From contig JADLHZ010000036.1 of assembly GCA_020848545.1 (NCBI GenBank), forward strand, positions 1-64,000: a stretch of 64,000 nt of DNA. Direction: 5' to 3'. Position 1 is the first letter of the stretch, and every line of letters starts with the position of its first letter. The position numbers were made by a program, and so were the translations under genes. The notes beneath the pieces are model-generated. The model was given only the letters and a program-made list of their open reading frames with translations. It was not told where the DNA came from and did not search any database. Shown piece by piece: positions 5,800 to 54,250 of this stretch. This DNA is from Deltaproteobacteria bacterium (GTDB taxonomy: Bacteria > Myxococcota > JADLHZ01).

Positions 5800-6284
5800 T
5801 GGGAACCCTCGGTGCGATGCGCGAGCGATCCGGTCGGCCGCATGATGCTGCCGATCAACGCCTCGTTCTCCGGCGTCAGCGGGATGGCGACGAGCCCGCT
5901 CTTCGTGTCCCGCCAGGTGGTGCCGGGCGGTGACCACCCGGCAGCGTCGCCGTCCTTGAAGCGCGAGGTCGAGCCCCAGGGATTGCGGCAGATGAGCGAA
6001 GGCGACGTCGTCGAGCGATCGAGCCCGACGACTTGCAGCGCGTGGCCGCTGTTCGGCACGCCGGGCTCGAGCGGTTTCCACTGTGTAGGCGGGATGAAGT
6101 CTGGTTGCACGAGCTCGGACGCGCCGCTCGCGGGGGGCGGGGGGCTTGCCTTGGGTGGCGGCGGCGCGTTCGGATCCACGCGCGGTCCGCTCTTGACGGT
6201 CTCGGCGCCGAGCTTGAGGTTCACCCCAAAGGAGTACGCGATCTCGAGCGAAGCGGCTAGGTAAGAAAAGGGGAAGTAAGCCAC
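5796..6284 (-). pseudogene. C-terminal half of a papain-like cysteine protease, 5' end missing at the tRNA
   Basis: 162 aa open frame. It has the His and Asn regions of papain-like peptidases (GHALQVVG and LICRNPWG) but no N-terminal catalytic Cys region. The first possible codon, GTG at 6284, lies inside the acceptor-stem sequence of the tRNA-Thr 3' fragment and has no ribosome binding site. The gene therefore appears to have lost its 5' part at the tRNA boundary. A Pro-rich linker lies at about residues 35-60. Its stop overlaps the start of the transglutaminase gene. It may be a relic of an older insertion at the same tRNA. Confidence 0.6.
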
Positions 6285-6323
6285 GAGCCGGGATTGAACC
6301 GGCGACCTGCGGTTTACGAAACC
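6279..6323. repeat. attL: displaced 3' end of tRNA-Thr
   Basis: 45 bases matching the 3' part of the tRNA-Thr gene at 20118-20162, from the discriminator through the anticodon stem. The only differences are g6290/a20129 and c6300/t20139. The uninterrupted identical core is 6301-6323. It marks the left end of the integrated element. Confidence 0.92.
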
Positions 6324-18960: not shown

Positions 18961-20228
18961 GCCTATACAAGTACGACGCCGACGGGCGCGAGATTAGCCA
19001 GAAGCAAGCGAAGGCGCGTGGCATCGACATGCCGGACGGTCCGTGGTGGCATGACTTCACAGTCGCTGGCCGGCGTCACCGCGAGAGCACCCACACCGAA
19101 GACTTCAAGCAAGCTGTCAAAGAAGAGCGCAAGCGGCGCGCCGAGTTGGAAGCGCAGGCGCCGAAGGTAGCCCGCGGGATTCCGACCTTGCGCAAGCTCG
19201 CGGACGCTGACATCGCTCATGCCCGCGACGCCAAGCGTGGCGCCGACATCCACATCCGCGGCATGGAGCGGCTCTGGAAGCTGGTGCTCGCCAATCTTCC
19301 CGCCGCCTGTCTCTACCCCCAGGATGTCACGGCCGATGTCCTCGCAGACTACAAGGTCAAGCGTCTGGCCGCGAAGGTGCTGCCGCAGACCATCAACGGC
19401 AAAGAGCTCGCGGCCATCAGGCGCGTGCTCGCCGTGGCGCTGAAGAAGGGCTGGATAGCGCAGATGCCCGAGTGGCCGGAGCGCGAGCGCATCCGCGCCA
19501 AGGACCGCGATGGAAAGCAGCGCGGCGCCTTCATCGACGCCGTTGACCTCGACAAGGTTCTCGCCGAGCTGAAGCCTGGCAATGCCGATGCCGCCCGCTT
19601 CGTCTTGGACACAGGCCTGCGCTTGTACGAGCTCATACGGAGCCGCTGGTCTTGGATTGACGTCGATGCCGACGGCAAGGCTCGTCTGAACCTTCCGGCC
19701 GAGGCGACGAAATCCGGCGAGTCCCGCACCATCTACCTCACGGCCACGGCGCTGGACATCGCACTGCGCCGCCATGAACAGCGCGGCGACGAGCTCTTCG
19801 CCGACGCCGAGAAGATGACCCTGGCGATGCGCCGCGCTTCGAAACGCGCCGGGCTCGACTACATCGTGCACATGCGGGACCTGAGACACACCTTCGCGTC
19901 CCGCCTCATCAACCGCCGCGTGCCCTTGAAAGTCGTCAGCGACGCTCTCGGGCACAGCGACGTCATGACCACGATGTTGTATCTGCACACCGATACCAGC
20001 CAGCGCAGCATCGTCGCCGAGACCGGGCATTCACCTTGCCAGAGCAAAGTTGCCAGAGCACCGGTGGACGGCGGTCCTCCGTCCGCCCAGGTGTCTGCAG
20101 TTGTTGAGAAAGGAGAAAGCCACGAGCCAGGATTGAACTGGCGACCTGCGGTTTACGAAACCGCTGCTCTGCCACTGAGCTATCGTGGCGAATCCGAATT
20201 CAGGCAGGAAAAGCGGAGCGCGAGGTAA
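18957..20228 (+). CDS. int: Tyrosine integrase of the island
   Basis: 423 aa as integrated. The catalytic domain covers about residues 195-350: Arg in TGLRLYELIRSRW, Lys in KSGESRTIYL, box II RDLRHTFASRL (Arg in place of the usual first His), LGHSDVMTTM, and nucleophile Tyr342 in MLYLHTD. The N-terminal part should bind arm sites. Beyond the catalytic core the frame passes through the attachment core and the antisense of tRNA-Thr and ends 39 bases beyond it, so the last 22 residues come from chromosomal DNA. In the excised circle the frame would continue into 6324-6563 instead. Confidence 0.93.
   Translation: MSLYKYDADGREISQKQAKARGIDMPDGPWWHDFTVAGRRHRESTHTEDFKQAVKEERKRRAELEAQAPKVARGIPTLRKLADADIAHARDAKRGADIHIRGMERLWKLVLANLPAACLYPQDVTADVLADYKVKRLAAKVLPQTINGKELAAIRRVLAVALKKGWIAQMPEWPERERIRAKDRDGKQRGAFIDAVDLDKVLAELKPGNADAARFVLDTGLRLYELIRSRWSWIDVDADGKARLNLPAEATKSGESRTIYLTATALDIALRRHEQRGDELFADAEKMTLAMRRASKRAGLDYIVHMRDLRHTFASRLINRRVPLKVVSDALGHSDVMTTMLYLHTDTSQRSIVAETGHSPCQSKVARAPVDGGPPSAQVSAVVEKGESHEPGLNWRPAVYETAALPLSYRGESEFRQEKRSAR
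20118..20162. repeat. attR: element-borne 3' part of tRNA-Thr
   Basis: 45 bases forming the 3' half of the complete tRNA-Thr gene and repeated at 6279-6323 with two substitutions. The identical core is 20140-20162. Because it lies on the integrase side, this copy was carried in by the element and rebuilds the tRNA. Confidence 0.92.
20118..20189 (-). tRNA. tRNA-Thr (anticodon CGU)
   Basis: A 72-base cloverleaf on the minus strand. The acceptor stem is GCCACGA/TCGTGGC, the D stem GCTC/GAGC, the anticodon stem GCGGT/ACCGC with loop TTCGTAA (anticodon CGT), and the T stem GCCAG/CTGGC with loop TTCAATC. The discriminator is T and no CCA is encoded. It is the integration target of the island; its 3' 45 bases derive from the element. 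Confidence 0.95.
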
Positions 20229-45059: not shown

Positions 45060-47239
<2,180 letters not shown>

Positions 47240-47301: not shown

Positions 47302-48288
47302 TTATCGGCGGTGGGGGTTTCGGGTTGCCGCCCTTGGATGGCCTTGATCGTAGATTGCGCGCAAACGGCGGGCATCGAGGTGCGTATAAACCTCGGTCGT
47401 TTGAATGTGGGCGTGGCCGAGCAGGGTCTGCACCACGCGCAGATCGGCCCCGTTTTGCACGAGGTGCGTCGCGAACGCGTGGCGGAGCTCGTGCGGCGAC
47501 GGCAGCGTCTGAAACCCGGCCGCGAGCGCCCGTCGCTTCAGAATCTTGAACACCGCCACCCGCGAGATCGCCCGGCCACCGCGCCCTGGGAACACGTAGG
47601 CGGAAACGCTCCGGGAGAGCGAAAGTCTCCCCGGTCCCTTTTCGCCCAAGGGCTCCCCGGTCCCTTTTCGTCGAAGCTTCCCCGGTCCCTTTTCGGGGCC
47701 ATGTTCGAGGTGGCGGCGGAGGGCGGCTTGGGCGGGCAGGCCCATCGGCACGAGGCGCTCTTTGTCGCCTTTGCCGCAGACGCGCACGAGGCCGCGGTCG
47801 AAGAAGAGGCCGTCCCGCCTGAGGCCGCAGAGCTCGCTGACGCGGAGGCCGCTGCCATACAGTAGCTCGAACATCGCCCGATCACGCAGCGCCTTTGCGT
47901 CGTCGCCCGAGAGGCCGTCGAGCAGCCGGCGCATCTCGGCTTCGCTCGGGACCGTGGGCAAAGGGCGTGGCGCACGCGGTGGCTTCAGATCCTTCGCGGG
48001 GTGATCCGCACGGAGGCCGCGCCGATGCAGGAAGCGAAAGAACTGCCGGACCGCCGACAGCGCCCGCGCTTGGCTACGCTTGCCGAGCACAGGCGCGAGC
48101 GACGCCGCGAAGCGGAGGAGGTGCTCGGGCGTCGCGGCTTGCGGGCTCGTTTCGCCCGAGAGAAACGCCGCCAGTCGATGCAGGTCTCGCGCGTAGGCCT
48201 CGACGGTGTGGCCGGACAGCGCGCGCACGCCGGCGATCTCCGCGAAGAACAAGTCGCAGGCGTGATCCCAAGCGGCGTCGTGCGACAT
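47302..48288 (-). CDS. xerD: Site-specific tyrosine recombinase XerD/XerC with repeat-derived insertion
   Basis: 328 aa from ATG 48288, about 30 longer than usual. An N-terminal SAM-like domain comes first, then the catalytic residues: Arg in LYGSGLRVSELC, Lys in KGDKERLVPMG, HELRHAFATHL, LGHAHIQTTEVYTHLD with Tyr301. It resolves chromosome dimers at dif. Between about residues 198 and 221 a Gly/Lys/Pro-rich stretch encodes three in-frame copies of a 17-base repeat also found at 52.9 kb. Its neighbourhood with scpA, scpB and rluB supports xerD. Confidence 0.88.
   Translation of the reverse strand: MSHDAAWDHACDLFFAEIAGVRALSGHTVEAYARDLHRLAAFLSGETSPQAATPEHLLRFAASLAPVLGKRSQARALSAVRQFFRFLHRRGLRADHPAKDLKPPRAPRPLPTVPSEAEMRRLLDGLSGDDAKALRDRAMFELLYGSGLRVSELCGLRRDGLFFDRGLVRVCGKGDKERLVPMGLPAQAALRRHLEHGPEKGPGKLRRKGTGEPLGEKGPGRLSLSRSVSAYVFPGRGGRAISRVAVFKILKRRALAAGFQTLPSPHELRHAFATHLVQNGADLRVVQTLLGHAHIQTTEVYTHLDARRLRAIYDQGHPRAATRNPHRR
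47628..47695. repeat. Three direct copies of a 17-base REP-like repeat inside xerD
   Basis: TCCCCGGTCCCTTTTCG occurs perfectly at 47628-47644, 47654-47670 and 47679-47695 (spacing 26 and 25 bases). In xerD it is read in frame as KGPGK/KGTGE/KGPGR-type peptide. Identical or inverted copies lie at 52877-52893 and 52950-52966. Confidence 0.92.
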
Positions 48289-48446
48289 CGGCACGCATCT
48301 TCCCATCGGCGTCGGCGATGCACAAACTTCCTGGTATGCCGTGCGAGCTTAGCGCCCTTTTTGACTCGCCGCGGCGAAAGAAAAAGCGCGGCGGCGGCAA
48401 AAACGGTCGAAATGCGCGCGCCCTTTGTGCTAGGGCACCGCCCCCA

Positions 48447-51348: not shown

Positions 51349-52722
51349 ATGGACGCGGAAAAATTACGCAAGCTAAAAGACGAGGCGGCGAAGTACCTCG
51401 GCAAAGGGCGGGTCGACAAGGCGCTCGAGATCTACGCCAAGGTGCTCGAGAGCGATCCACACGACCTGCAATCGCGCCTGAAGTGCGGTGACCTCTATCG
51501 TCGCCTCGGAAAAGACGCAGAAGCCATCGCCTGCTACCACCAAGTCGCCGAGGCGTACGCCAACGAGGGCTTGTTGCTGAAGGCGATCGCCGTCTGCAAG
51601 CTGATCCTCGAGGTCGACGAGAACCACACGGCGACGCAGTCGATGCTCGCCGGCCTCTACGCGAAGAAGAGCGGGTCCGCGAAGCCTGCCGCCGCCGCTG
51701 CGCCGGCTGCGAAGAGCGCCGACGCCGCGCCGCCGCCGCCGCCGCTCCCGATCGACATGCTCGACATCGCCGCGCCGCTCGAGCCGATGATGGTCGACGT
51801 CGGCGACGTCGTGCTCGAAGACATGCCGGAAGTCGACATGCCGGCCGTCCCCGCGGCGCCGCCGCCCACCGAGGCGCGTGAAGATCTGCCGCAGATCCCG
51901 CTCTTCTCCGATCTGTCGAAGAACGCGTTCATCTCGCTGATGGAGCGGATGAAGATGCGCACGGCGCAGACCGGCGAAGTGATCATTCAAGAAGGCGGCA
52001 AGGGCGACTCGTTCTTCATCATCGCGCAGGGTAAGGTGCACGTGGAGAAGAACGCGGACGGCAAGCCGCTCGTGCTCGCGTCGCTCGGTGACGGCGCGTT
52101 CTTCGGCGAGATGGCGTTGCTCAGCGAGTCGCCGCGCACGGCCAGCGTCATCGTCGACGAGCCGACGCAGTTGTTCGAGATCTCGAAGTCGGTGCTCGAT
52201 CAGGTGTCGAAGGAGTACAGCTCGGTGCAGCAAGTGCTCCTCCGCTTTTACAAGCAGCGCCTGCTCGCGAACCTGATGGCGACGAGCCGCATCTTCAAGC
52301 TGCTCACGGTCGATCAACGGAAGAAGCTCATCGAGCAGTTCAAGAGCCGCGAAGTGCCGGCGAACGAAGTGATCCTCAGCGAAGGGCAGAAGGGCGACGG
52401 CCTCTATTTGATCCTGTCAGGCCGTGTGAAGATCCTGAAGCTGAAAGGCGAGACGAAGCAGGTCGTCGTCGCGCGGTTGAAGGAAGGCGAAGTCTTCGGC
52501 GAAATGTCGCTCCTGTCGAACGCGCCGGTGAGCGCCACCGTGACGGCCGAGAAGCGCTCGATCATCCTGCGCCTGCCGCGCAAGTCGTTCGCGGAAGTCT
52601 TGTCGACGCACCCGCAGCTCTTGGAGCACATCAGCCAGCTCTCGGACGAACGCTCGAAGATGACCGAAGCGATCGTCGCCGGCACGGTCGCGGTGCACGA
52701 AGACGACGTCATGCTCGTGTGA
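51349..52722 (+). CDS. TPR protein with two cyclic-nucleotide-binding domains
   Basis: 457 aa. Residues 1-105 carry TPR-like repeats (AAKYLGKGRVDKALEIYAKV, GDLYRRLGKDAEAIACYHQV). An Ala/Pro-rich linker precedes two cNMP-binding beta-rolls at about 190-305 (EGGKGDSFFIIAQGKVHVEK, FFGEMALLSESPRTASV) and about 325-440 (EGQKGDGLYLILSGRVKILK, VFGEMSLLSNAPVSATV). Both have the FGE cassette and PRT/PVS-type ends; the first matches the cAMP-binding RTA pattern, the second is altered. No DNA-binding domain is present. It probably acts as a regulatory scaffold. Confidence 0.82.
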   Translation: MDAEKLRKLKDEAAKYLGKGRVDKALEIYAKVLESDPHDLQSRLKCGDLYRRLGKDAEAIACYHQVAEAYANEGLLLKAIAVCKLILEVDENHTATQSMLAGLYAKKSGSAKPAAAAAPAAKSADAAPPPPPLPIDMLDIAAPLEPMMVDVGDVVLEDMPEVDMPAVPAAPPPTEAREDLPQIPLFSDLSKNAFISLMERMKMRTAQTGEVIIQEGGKGDSFFIIAQGKVHVEKNADGKPLVLASLGDGAFFGEMALLSESPRTASVIVDEPTQLFEISKSVLDQVSKEYSSVQQVLLRFYKQRLLANLMATSRIFKLLTVDQRKKLIEQFKSREVPANEVILSEGQKGDGLYLILSGRVKILKLKGETKQVVVARLKEGEVFGEMSLLSNAPVSATVTAEKRSIILRLPRKSFAEVLSTHPQLLEHISQLSDERSKMTEAIVAGTVAVHEDDVMLV

Positions 52723-52847
52723 AAAAATCGCGATACGGGCGCGTCTGCTTCGTTGCTCGGTCGCTGCGCTGCTCGGCGTAGCTCCGCTACGCCTGCGCTG
52801 CTCACTTCGTCGCGCCTCGCATACGCAACCCGTCTCACGATTTTTTC
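52721..52847. repeat. Long imperfect palindrome after the cNMP-binding gene
   Basis: GAAAAAATCG (52721-52730) is matched by CGATTTTTTC (52838-52847). The centre is a strong hairpin, GGCGTAGC/GCTACGCC with a TCC loop (about 52776-52794), flanked by direct copies of TGCGCTGCTC. The right arm ends in T-runs, so it could act as a rightward terminator; the left arm gives T-runs on the other strand. Confidence 0.65.
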
Positions 52848-52863
52848 CTTGCTCGTCACCGGC

Positions 52864-52966
52864 AGGGGACCGGGGCCGAAAAGGGACCGGGGAGAGAGGA
52901 CCGGGGAGAGTTTCCCCGATCCCTTTTCGTTTGCTCGTTTTCGCTTCTCTCCCCGGTCCCTTTTCG
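52864..52966. repeat. Nested inverted REP-like structure (REPIN-like)
   Basis: CGAAAAGGGACCGGGGAGAG (52877-52896) and its exact reverse complement (52947-52966) form a 20-bp inverted repeat. Inside it, a shorter GGACCGGGGA near 52899 faces TCCCCGATCC at 52913-52923 with one mismatch. A further partial copy (AGGGGACCGGGG) begins at 52864. It ends 15 bases before the start of the hydrolase gene. Confidence 0.85.
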
Positions 52967-52981
52967 CTAGGACGGCGCGCG

Positions 52982-54250
52982 ATGTGGTTGGCGCTGTTGA
53001 TTTGTTTGCTGGCGGCCTGCGTTTCTGTGGAGCCAGGGGGGACGAAGGCGGAGGAGACGGCGGCGCCGGCGCCGGTGGCCGAGACGCCGAGTGAGCCCGA
53101 AGAAGCGCCCGCCGAAGAGAGCGGGGCACCCTGCACCGAGAACGGCTGCGTGCGATCGCATAGGTTCGTCGGCCGCTACACGAAGGCAGTCATCCAGCCG
53201 CTGCTCGAGCCGGGCGTCACGATCGACAACGGCTACGCTGTCTACGTCATCCGTTACACGAGTGACGGCCAAGAAGTCGGCGCCACGATCACCGTGCCGA
53301 TCGGCGTCGCAGCGCCGGCCGGCGGCTTTCACATCGTGAGCAACCAGCATGGAACGACCGGCCTGGCCGATGTCTGCGCCGTCACCGGCACCACGTGGGG
53401 CACCGGGCTCGCCGGCGAATTCGGCGCCCGCGGAATGATCGGCGTGGCTCCCGACTATCACGGGCTCGGCGGCGCCGGCGTGCATCCGTACCTCGTGACC
53501 GCGAGCGAAGGACGGTCCGCGCTCGACTCGCTCCGCGCCGCCGCGGCGTTTGCGGACAAGATGCGCATCCCGATCTCTCGCCGCTTCGCAGTCGTCGGGC
53601 TCAGCCAAGGCGGCCATGCGGCGCTCGCCGCGGCAGCGTTGCATGCCACGTACGCAAAGGATCTCGACGTGCGAGCGTTCGCCGCCGCTGGCCCCGCGAG
53701 CGTACGCGAAGAGCTCTGGCGCGACGCGATGACCGTGCCGGGAGAGCATGTGGCGTACCATGCGCTCGTCTTCTACGCGTGGGCGAAGCACTACCCCTAC
53801 GCAGGGCCGTCGCCGTTTCAGGCGCCCGTCGCGGCGAAGATCGACGCGTGGATGGAGACCGCCTGCGCCTTCGGTCCGATCCCGGGCACGCCGGCGCTCG
53901 GGACGCTCTTGCCGCATGAGCCAGCCGCGCTGTTCACACCGGCGCTGCTCCACGGCTACGCGACGGGCGAGTGGGGTGCCCTTGCGGCCCTCCACGATGC
54001 GTTCGAAGCGAACCGCGTCCGGGCTTACGCGCAAACGGCGCCGCTCAGGATCTACCAAGGAGACGCCGACGCGACCGTGCCTGAGCCGCACACGCGCGCG
54101 ATGGTCGAGGATCTGCGAGCGGGCGGCGTCAGCGTCGACTACGTCGTCGTCCCGGGCGGCGCGCACACCGACGTCGCGTTCTCGTTCGTGGCGCAGAAGC
54201 AGTCGCACAGCGAAGACGCCGTCGCGTGGTTGGAAGCTCAGCTCGACTGA
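52982..54250 (+). CDS. Alpha/beta hydrolase lipoprotein (lipase/esterase-like)
   Basis: 422 aa from ATG 52982. The lipobox LLAAC gives a lipidated Cys near residue 13. A low-complexity Pro/Glu/Ala linker and a Cys-containing segment follow. The hydrolase domain has GLSQGGHAALAA (nucleophile Ser elbow), QGDADATVPEPHTRAM (probable Asp) and VPGGAHTDVAFSF (probable His). It resembles secretory lipases. No promoter was recognised; the REP-like structure occupies the upstream gap. Confidence 0.78.
   Translation: MWLALLICLLAACVSVEPGGTKAEETAAPAPVAETPSEPEEAPAEESGAPCTENGCVRSHRFVGRYTKAVIQPLLEPGVTIDNGYAVYVIRYTSDGQEVGATITVPIGVAAPAGGFHIVSNQHGTTGLADVCAVTGTTWGTGLAGEFGARGMIGVAPDYHGLGGAGVHPYLVTASEGRSALDSLRAAAAFADKMRIPISRRFAVVGLSQGGHAALAAAALHATYAKDLDVRAFAAAGPASVREELWRDAMTVPGEHVAYHALVFYAWAKHYPYAGPSPFQAPVAAKIDAWMETACAFGPIPGTPALGTLLPHEPAALFTPALLHGYATGEWGALAALHDAFEANRVRAYAQTAPLRIYQGDADATVPEPHTRAMVEDLRAGGVSVDYVVVPGGAHTDVAFSFVAQKQSHSEDAVAWLEAQLD

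Follow-up and report, generated by a model that had tools for sequence, protein, structure and literature searches.

The nested palindrome at positions 52877–52966 of the analyzed window, a continuous stretch of 64,000 nt, is a rare by-product and one unusual member of a dispersed repeat family. The best reading of this family is a genome-confined, non-palindromic selfish repeat that occurs mainly in direct arrays and has a REP-like ecology. We regard it as somewhat probable that the feature belongs to an array of genome-specific short interspersed repeats, which probably arose from selfish insertions of single units and subsequent local tandem duplication.

The nested palindrome upstream of the hydrolase gene

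The initial annotation had described two inverted copies of one repeat that enclose a second, imperfect stem of the same sequence family, and this description was borne out on both strands. The features of the region are as follows:

51349–52722, plus strand: upstream neighbour, gene for a TPR and cyclic-nucleotide-binding protein
52864–52875, plus strand: partial copy (AGGGGACCGGGG) at the left edge, one mismatch to AAGGGACCGGGG
52877–52897 and 52946–52966: outer inverted repeat, arms of 21 nt, 100% identity, 48 nt between the arms
52877–52893 and 52913–52929: inner imperfect inverted repeat, 17 nt, 94% identity
52878–52893, plus strand: full core copy 1, exact (GAAAAGGGACCGGGGA)
52898–52907, plus strand: 5′-truncated copy (GGACCGGGGA); the 16-mer match 52892–52907 has three mismatches
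52913–52928, minus strand: inverted copy with one mismatch, forms the inner imperfect stem
52950–52965, minus strand: inverted full copy, exact, forms the outer perfect stem with copy 1
52982–54250, plus strand: downstream neighbour, gene for a lipase-like alpha/beta hydrolase (PF03583 and PF00326, lipase/prolyl-oligopeptidase type)

The truncated copy repeats the right part of copy 1 as a direct repeat with a spacing of 14. At up to three mismatches, AAAGGGACCGGGGAGA had seven matches in the window compared with 0.43 expected, and none of 100 shuffled sequences reached seven. A chance origin of the copies within the window is thus unlikely.

Folding of the RNA from 52859 to 52970 yielded −65.2 kcal/mol (z = −3.92). 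The palindrome had been reported to end 15 bases before the ATG of an alpha/beta hydrolase gene, and both the distance and the gene assignment were confirmed, with the ATG at 52982. The possible ribosome-binding site AGGA (52969–52972) lies outside the palindrome. By eye, the start of the hydrolase, MWLALLICLLAAC, resembles a lipobox, i.e., a lipoprotein-type signal. If transcribed, the hairpin would be located in the leader of the hydrolase mRNA, but it need not be functional.

Three other repetitive stretches were observed in the window. Directly 3′ of the gene for the cyclic-nucleotide-binding protein, a long hairpin was predicted at 52719–52849 (z = −4.41), which has a terminator-like stem of an A-run and a T-run. 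It is 87% identical over 92 nt to a copy at one further locus (L129), and weaker copies exist at two others (L072 and L109, 67–69%). Two stretches of 49 nt (6275–6323 and 20114–20162) are 94% identical and, by eye, resemble parts of tRNA genes. A 52-nt family has 11 copies, 9 of which lie within about 1 kb in a direct-repeat cluster at 45411–46485; the cluster probably encodes a repetitive protein.

Unit, arrays and distribution of the repeat

The source genome comprises 7,985,837 bases in 163 contigs. It contains 251 exact copies of the 14-mer AAAAGGGACCGGGG, compared with one copy of the reversed control, and 248 exact copies of the 15-mer GAAAAGGGACCGGGG. At up to three mismatches, the 16-mer matched 372 places versus 30 for the reversed pattern, which leaves some 340 real copies, counting partial ones, of which about 250 are exact. 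In total, 97 regions were fetched, 95 around listed copies and 2 around RAYT genes, and the window was added. They contain at least 107 arrays with 253 copies, 221 of which are exact over 16 nt. These arrays represent most but not all of the family, as the 221 exact 16-mers can be compared with the 248 exact 15-mers. Sixty sample stretches (1.2 Mb) contained seven further exact copies.

Among the 107 arrays, 36 consist of one copy and 71 of two to seven copies. The great majority of neighbouring copies, 130 of 146, have the same orientation and are thus arranged head-to-tail, and the remaining 16 are inverted. Spacings between same-orientation neighbours are 23–28 nt in 100 of 130 cases, with no single preferred value. 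A plus copy that faces a minus copy at a distance of 50–100 bp occurs in only 2 of the 107 arrays, namely the palindrome at 52877–52966 and one further locus (L091). The initial annotation had likened the palindrome to REPIN doublets and had proposed a genome-wide search for paired inverted copies as a check; with this low number of facing pairs, the REPIN hypothesis largely failed its own test. What remains of it is that the repeat is dispersed and placed like REPs, whereas membership in the REPINs is contradicted by the geometry as well as by the hairpin and tag analyses described below.

The unit has a length of 24 nt and, derived from 64 copies, the consensus C / GAAAAGGGACCGGGGA-RGN-TTTCG, in which the first base of the core follows the slash; it can also be written GAAAAGGGACCGGGGA(N4)TTCG. 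The core of 16 nt is near-invariant, and the ends of the unit show a short CGAA/TTCG terminal symmetry. A TTCG is present nearby on the downstream side of 79 copies; for 64 of them, the distance from the first base of the core to the end of TTCG is exactly 24 nt. With RNA parameters, the single consensus unit did not form a significant hairpin (z = +0.50), and a typed two-unit consensus folded no better than shuffled sequences (z = −0.60). The consensus of the 64 copies does not contain a GTAG or CGTC tag. No target-site duplication was found in 18 single copies with a TTCG end (mean 0.94 versus 1.30 by permutation, p = 0.94).

Core and spacer differ strongly in their conservation. In pairs of equal period within arrays, 15 of 704 core positions (2.1%) and 61 of 301 spacer positions (20%) were different, and between arrays the divergence was 2.5% for the core and 60% for the spacer. 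The cores thus differ about ten times less than the spacers. The core divergence is somewhat underestimated because the copies were collected at up to three mismatches, but we do not see how this alone could generate a tenfold gap between core and spacer in the same units.

Arrays on the same contig show a weak tendency to share their orientation (62 of 98 pairs; p = 0.013 by permutation). Insertion relative to the replication strand was first tested with the fetched regions, where the local p value was 0.04 and the per-contig value 0.21. With 67 arrays on 20 contigs, no association was found with contig GC skew (p = 0.40), third-position skew (p = 0.30) or gene bias (p = 0.89); contig GC skew does not explain the orientation concordance. 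An Rfam search with window positions 52400–53300 and ten array loci yielded only three tRNAs at the gathering score.

In searches with 15-, 16- and 17-mers, the family was confined to its own genome, and elsewhere only single matches were found. The order is represented by this genome alone and the phylum by 195 genomes, three of which contain the 15-mer: the source genome and two others with one copy each. In a collection of 84,980 species, a scan that may have skipped the source genome or its closest kin, there were 11 single matches to the 17-mer, by title in various other bacteria. Five single exact matches to the 16-mer were found in viral contigs. A phage or other foreign source was rejected, as the single matches in viral contigs and in the collection are, by our own estimate, no more than chance would give for such short words.

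About 200 kb of each of four relatives (G189, G026, G182 and G183) was sampled, with a method that detects the family in 204 kb of its own genome. No recognisable family of such a kind was found in these samples. In G189 and G026, none of the top 12 k-mers had tandem copies. The sample of G182 contains a dispersed 11-mer, CAATGTCACTG, with eight copies at eight places in 200 kb that are not in arrays (L288–L297), as well as TCTCCGTCTCC-type k-mers with tandem pairs. In G183, GAGGGAGAGGG was found, together with CCCTCACCCTC, which has 18 copies at seven places and three tandem pairs (L298–L307). The tandem k-mers of G182 and G183 were judged by eye to be of low complexity, and a looser relative of the class may be present there.

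Location of the arrays between and within genes

Genes were called with a simple codon-usage caller that had been trained on the genes of the window, and the results are not an annotation. By these calls, 81 of the 107 arrays are intergenic, 20 are inside genes and 6 partly overlap genes, although the coding share of the 1.2 Mb sampled is 93%. For the 80 intergenic arrays with both neighbours, and with expectations based on the number of bases per gap type, convergent gaps are enriched (19 arrays versus 8.5 expected) and divergent gaps are depleted (18 versus 28.1; p = 0.0003). A gene end was present within 20 bp of an array for 40 of 81 adjacent 3′ ends, but only for 9 of 79 adjacent 5′ ends (p = 1.5e-7). 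The orientation relative to the adjacent 3′ end showed no preference (28 toward, 25 away). Furthermore, no recurring gene family was detected among 224 neighbouring and host proteins, each cut to at most 450 aa and with the window arrays left out (the largest families had 2 and 3 members out of 112 proteins).

The window contains a second array, which had been absent from the initial annotation:

47628–47694, minus strand: three in-frame direct copies within the gene for a XerC/D-type tyrosine recombinase (47302–48306); the copies translate as EKGPGKLRRKGTGEPLGEKGPGR

Of the 20 gene-internal arrays, 16 are in sense orientation, 3 are antisense and 1 is mixed (binomial p = 0.004 on 19). The count includes L069, where a large gene contains one lone antisense copy that deviates from the core at one position; this occurrence may be due to chance. 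The unit length inside genes was 24 nt, i.e., eight codons, in 24 of 25 measured cases, and depending on the frame, the encoded peptides are EKGPG, RKGTG or KRDRG. The hosts include, besides the XerC/D recombinase, a DnaE2-like polymerase, LigD and a topoisomerase-RecQ fusion. The XerC/D-type protein has gained about 20 residues in comparison with 19 relatives and 22 in comparison with E. coli XerD. The copies in LigD, which carries one, and in the topoisomerase-RecQ fusion are located in linkers. The DnaE2-like polymerase has its copy at a loop of naturally variable length, and therefore, this site does not offer a clean empty site from which the boundaries of the insertion could be read.

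Array growth, known repeat classes and rival explanations

Truncated copies were found next to or within arrays. Prefix matches of 8–10 nt (GAAAAGGG and one or two further bases) were found 13 times compared with about 0.1 expected. On visual inspection, 12 of these represent truncated copies, most of which immediately precede the first full copy, and the remaining one is a full copy that carries a mismatch. There were 27 suffix matches (7, 8, 10 or 11 nt), compared with about 0.8 expected. Of these, 22 were classed by eye as truncated copies, 12 of them CCGGGGA, and they follow the last copy or lie within the array. The endpoints vary: 7 of the 12 prefixes end after base 8, and 12 of the 22 suffixes start at base 10, while 9 start at bases 6 or 7. 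In the arrangement X-GAAAAGGG-X-core, X is 2–5 bases long and recurs exactly in 9 of 11 cases, and in 3 of these 9 it comprises only 2 nt; with all half-site variants tested, the preceding bases are repeated in 12 of 17. Ten of the 92 arrays with a single orientation have a repeat of the right flank together with a part of the core (CCGGGGA in 6 of the 10), and 7 have a repeat of the left flank. The truncated copies and the repeated flanks show that many duplications had one end at a variable flank position and one at or near the core centre. We infer from these sequence patterns that arrays may grow when a stall or break close to the core centre leads to a tandem duplication.

If all of this is accounted for by insertion and duplication, single units would have entered new sites with no duplication of the target, and they would probably be selfish DNA. 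Copies would have been purged from promoters and from those gene interiors where they break the frame. The arrays would then have been lengthened by local tandem duplications with one end at or close to the core centre (GAAAAGGG/ACCGGGGA), and copies that ended up inverted would give occasional hairpins, such as that at 52877–52966. The scarcity of decayed copies would, however, also fit a functional binding site under selection. The core might itself be a site of repeated DNA breaks or replication blocks at or near its centre, so that it would propagate itself and spread via end-joining and not by a transposase. A sequence-specific nuclease or a bound protein would cause the break or block, repair would recopy the flank and part of the core, and each visit would add either half of a copy, left or right, or a complete unit. 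LigD, which is encoded in this genome and itself contains one copy, is the end-joining protein cited for this reading. We regard this as a minor, though not negligible, possibility.

The genome has four matches to Y1_Tnp. The complete RAYT matches REP_Tyr_transpos at positions 3–145 of 146 with 62.6 bits, which falls short of the curated threshold (80). The palindrome AGGTCCCAGGGACCT/AGGTCCCWGGGACCT (G000:C18:35284-35298) overlaps the stop codon of this gene. At up to one mismatch, AGGTCCCWGGGACCT is present at 78 places genome-wide, e.g., at L204:15931 and 16014. Among the 50 places listed (of 78), 11 pairs lie less than 100 bp apart. The central bases are opposite in 7 of these pairs, as would be expected of inverted doublets, although the central base of this palindrome is a weak marker of orientation. 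The AGGTCCCWGGGACCT palindrome is probably the REP/REPIN family of this genome and distinct from the GAAAAGGGACCGGGGA repeat. At up to two mismatches, the core is absent from the 1.9-kb locus that contains the complete RAYT gene, and the nearest array is about 4.7 kb away. A truncated RAYT-like gene lies at a contig end (G000:C25:47-424; L063, L090), with a Y1_Tnp match that covers 4–86 of 121 positions and, by eye, an inverted repeat at about 93–125 beside the end of this match. A four-copy array starts about 120 bp upstream of its ATG.

The GAAAAGGGACCGGGGA family shares several features with REPs and REPINs. As available parts of the sources describe them, these are high-copy, short and mainly extragenic, lie near 3′ ends and favour convergent gaps, and some copies are inside genes, many of which serve DNA synthesis or repair (PMC3116915, PMC3733652, PMC8266576). 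DnaE2, DNA ligase and other repair genes are named among the REP carriers (PMC3733652). The GAAAAGGGACCGGGGA family likewise has many, mainly extragenic copies. However, the replicative unit of REPINs is an inverted REP pair, an arrangement that in P. fluorescens SBW25 accounts for 93% of the 430 doublets (PMC3116915), and a GTAG or CGTC tag is described beside the palindrome in most REP families (PMC3733652). In contrast, the GAAAAGGGACCGGGGA family has mainly direct arrays with variable spacers, no significant unit hairpin and no tag, and the complete RAYT overlaps another repeat. REPIN membership was rejected on the basis of the 16 of 146 inverted neighbours and a palindrome geometry in 2 of 107 arrays. 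Assignment to the REPs was also rejected, with respect to a palindromic unit (z = +0.50 and only the CGAA/TTCG terminal symmetry) and with respect to the tag, which is absent from the consensus of 64 copies.

Several other classes were compared. CRISPRs are composed of repeats with unique spacers of about repeat length and lie beside cas genes. The arrays do not fit this description, with close spacers of 5–16 nt after the 16-nt core and no recurring neighbour family. The target-site duplication expected of a MITE was absent from the 18 single copies (p = 0.94). Rickettsia palindromic elements are, in the part of the source at hand, stem-loops of 105–146 bp that occur in frame in protein genes and also intergenically (PMC2229807). 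In-frame insertion in protein genes is also found in the GAAAAGGGACCGGGGA family, but its units of 24 nt lack a strong palindrome and occur in one to seven copies, and their length does not fit that class. The TAACTGA sets of Beggiatoaceae, Cyanobacteria and Bacteroidetes are similar in that more than 100 short direct-repeat sets per genome are mostly intergenic, with a function described as unproven in the text available (PMC4679880). They differ in their 7-nt units, in their position, which in the Beggiatoa genome is mostly close to start codons, and in their spread over several phyla (PMC4679880, in part), whereas the GAAAAGGGACCGGGGA family has 24-nt units and variable spacers, is nearer to stop codons and is found in one genome. 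Two recurrent archaeal oligonucleotides with G-quadruplex potential, ACC-L and ACC-S, contain the 12 nt GGGACCGGGGAG, which are common to the repeat (PMC8044849, Table 1). As far as that source was available, they have a longer G-rich stretch, followed in ACC-L by its own complement (PMC8044849), and the GGGACCGGGGAG match, a shared G-rich string only, may be coincidence. No description of the repeat was found in the literature, judged mostly from titles and abstract openings, including by means of the string GGGACCGGGG.

The rival explanations differ in what they make of these data. The arrays could be binding sites of a host DNA- or RNA-binding protein with a nucleoid, replication or post-transcriptional role that are kept by selection. 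The genome-wide constancy of the 16-nt core while the spacers change would be expected of such sites, and direct arrays recall the Beggiatoaceae TAACTGA repeats, for which a regulatory role was proposed in the portion of the source available (PMC4679880). However, the spread of 100 of 130 spacings over 23–28 nt, the indifferent orientation at 3′ ends (28 toward, 25 away), the lack of a recurring neighbour gene family and the copies inside protein loops and linkers make this unlikely. Spreading of a REP/REPIN-type element without a strong palindrome by a RAYT, a Y1 HUH transposase, with the truncated RAYT of C25 as a possible dead mobiliser, is rather unlikely. The four Y1_Tnp matches, the array about 120 bp upstream of the truncated RAYT and the lack of target duplication are consistent with it, as are the 3′-end position, the convergent enrichment and the insertion into DNA-repair genes, which match REPs in the available part of PMC3733652. 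Nevertheless, the arrays are direct instead of inverted doublets, neither one unit (z = +0.50) nor two (z = −0.60) form a significant hairpin, the GTAG/CGTC tag is missing, contig GC skew shows no link and the complete RAYT overlaps a different, palindromic repeat. An array in one of about six to eight RAYT-flanking gaps is, by our own estimate, roughly a one-in-ten chance event. No mobiliser was found, the transposase search having covered the Y1 family.

Plain replication slippage, i.e., a microsatellite-like expansion of G-rich sequence without mobility, is a highly improbable source of the family. It would explain the identical spacers in several arrays and the repeated flanks (right in 10, left in 7 of 92 single-orientation arrays), but the cores do not drift with the spacers, and local slippage could not seed the same unit at more than 100 loci in unrelated flanks. 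A hairpin that specifically regulates the hydrolase gene, as an attenuator, an RNase site or a blocker of the ribosome-binding site, has very little probability. The RNA hairpin is strong (z = −3.92) and ends 15 nt before the ATG. Against a local function, the same repeat is present at more than 100 other places, mostly not as a hairpin, the AGGA is outside the stem, and no Rfam family reached the gathering score; six sub-threshold matches to miRNA hairpins are of the kind that any long hairpin may give.

The GAAAAGGGACCGGGGA family suggests that a REP-like ecology, with a preference for 3′ ends, convergent gaps, DNA-repair genes and in-frame peptides, is possible without a palindrome and tag that are read by a RAYT. 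An internal contrast is offered by the RAYT gene of the same genome, which has a palindromic repeat of its own. The half-copies that end near the core centre provide a sequence record of array growth.
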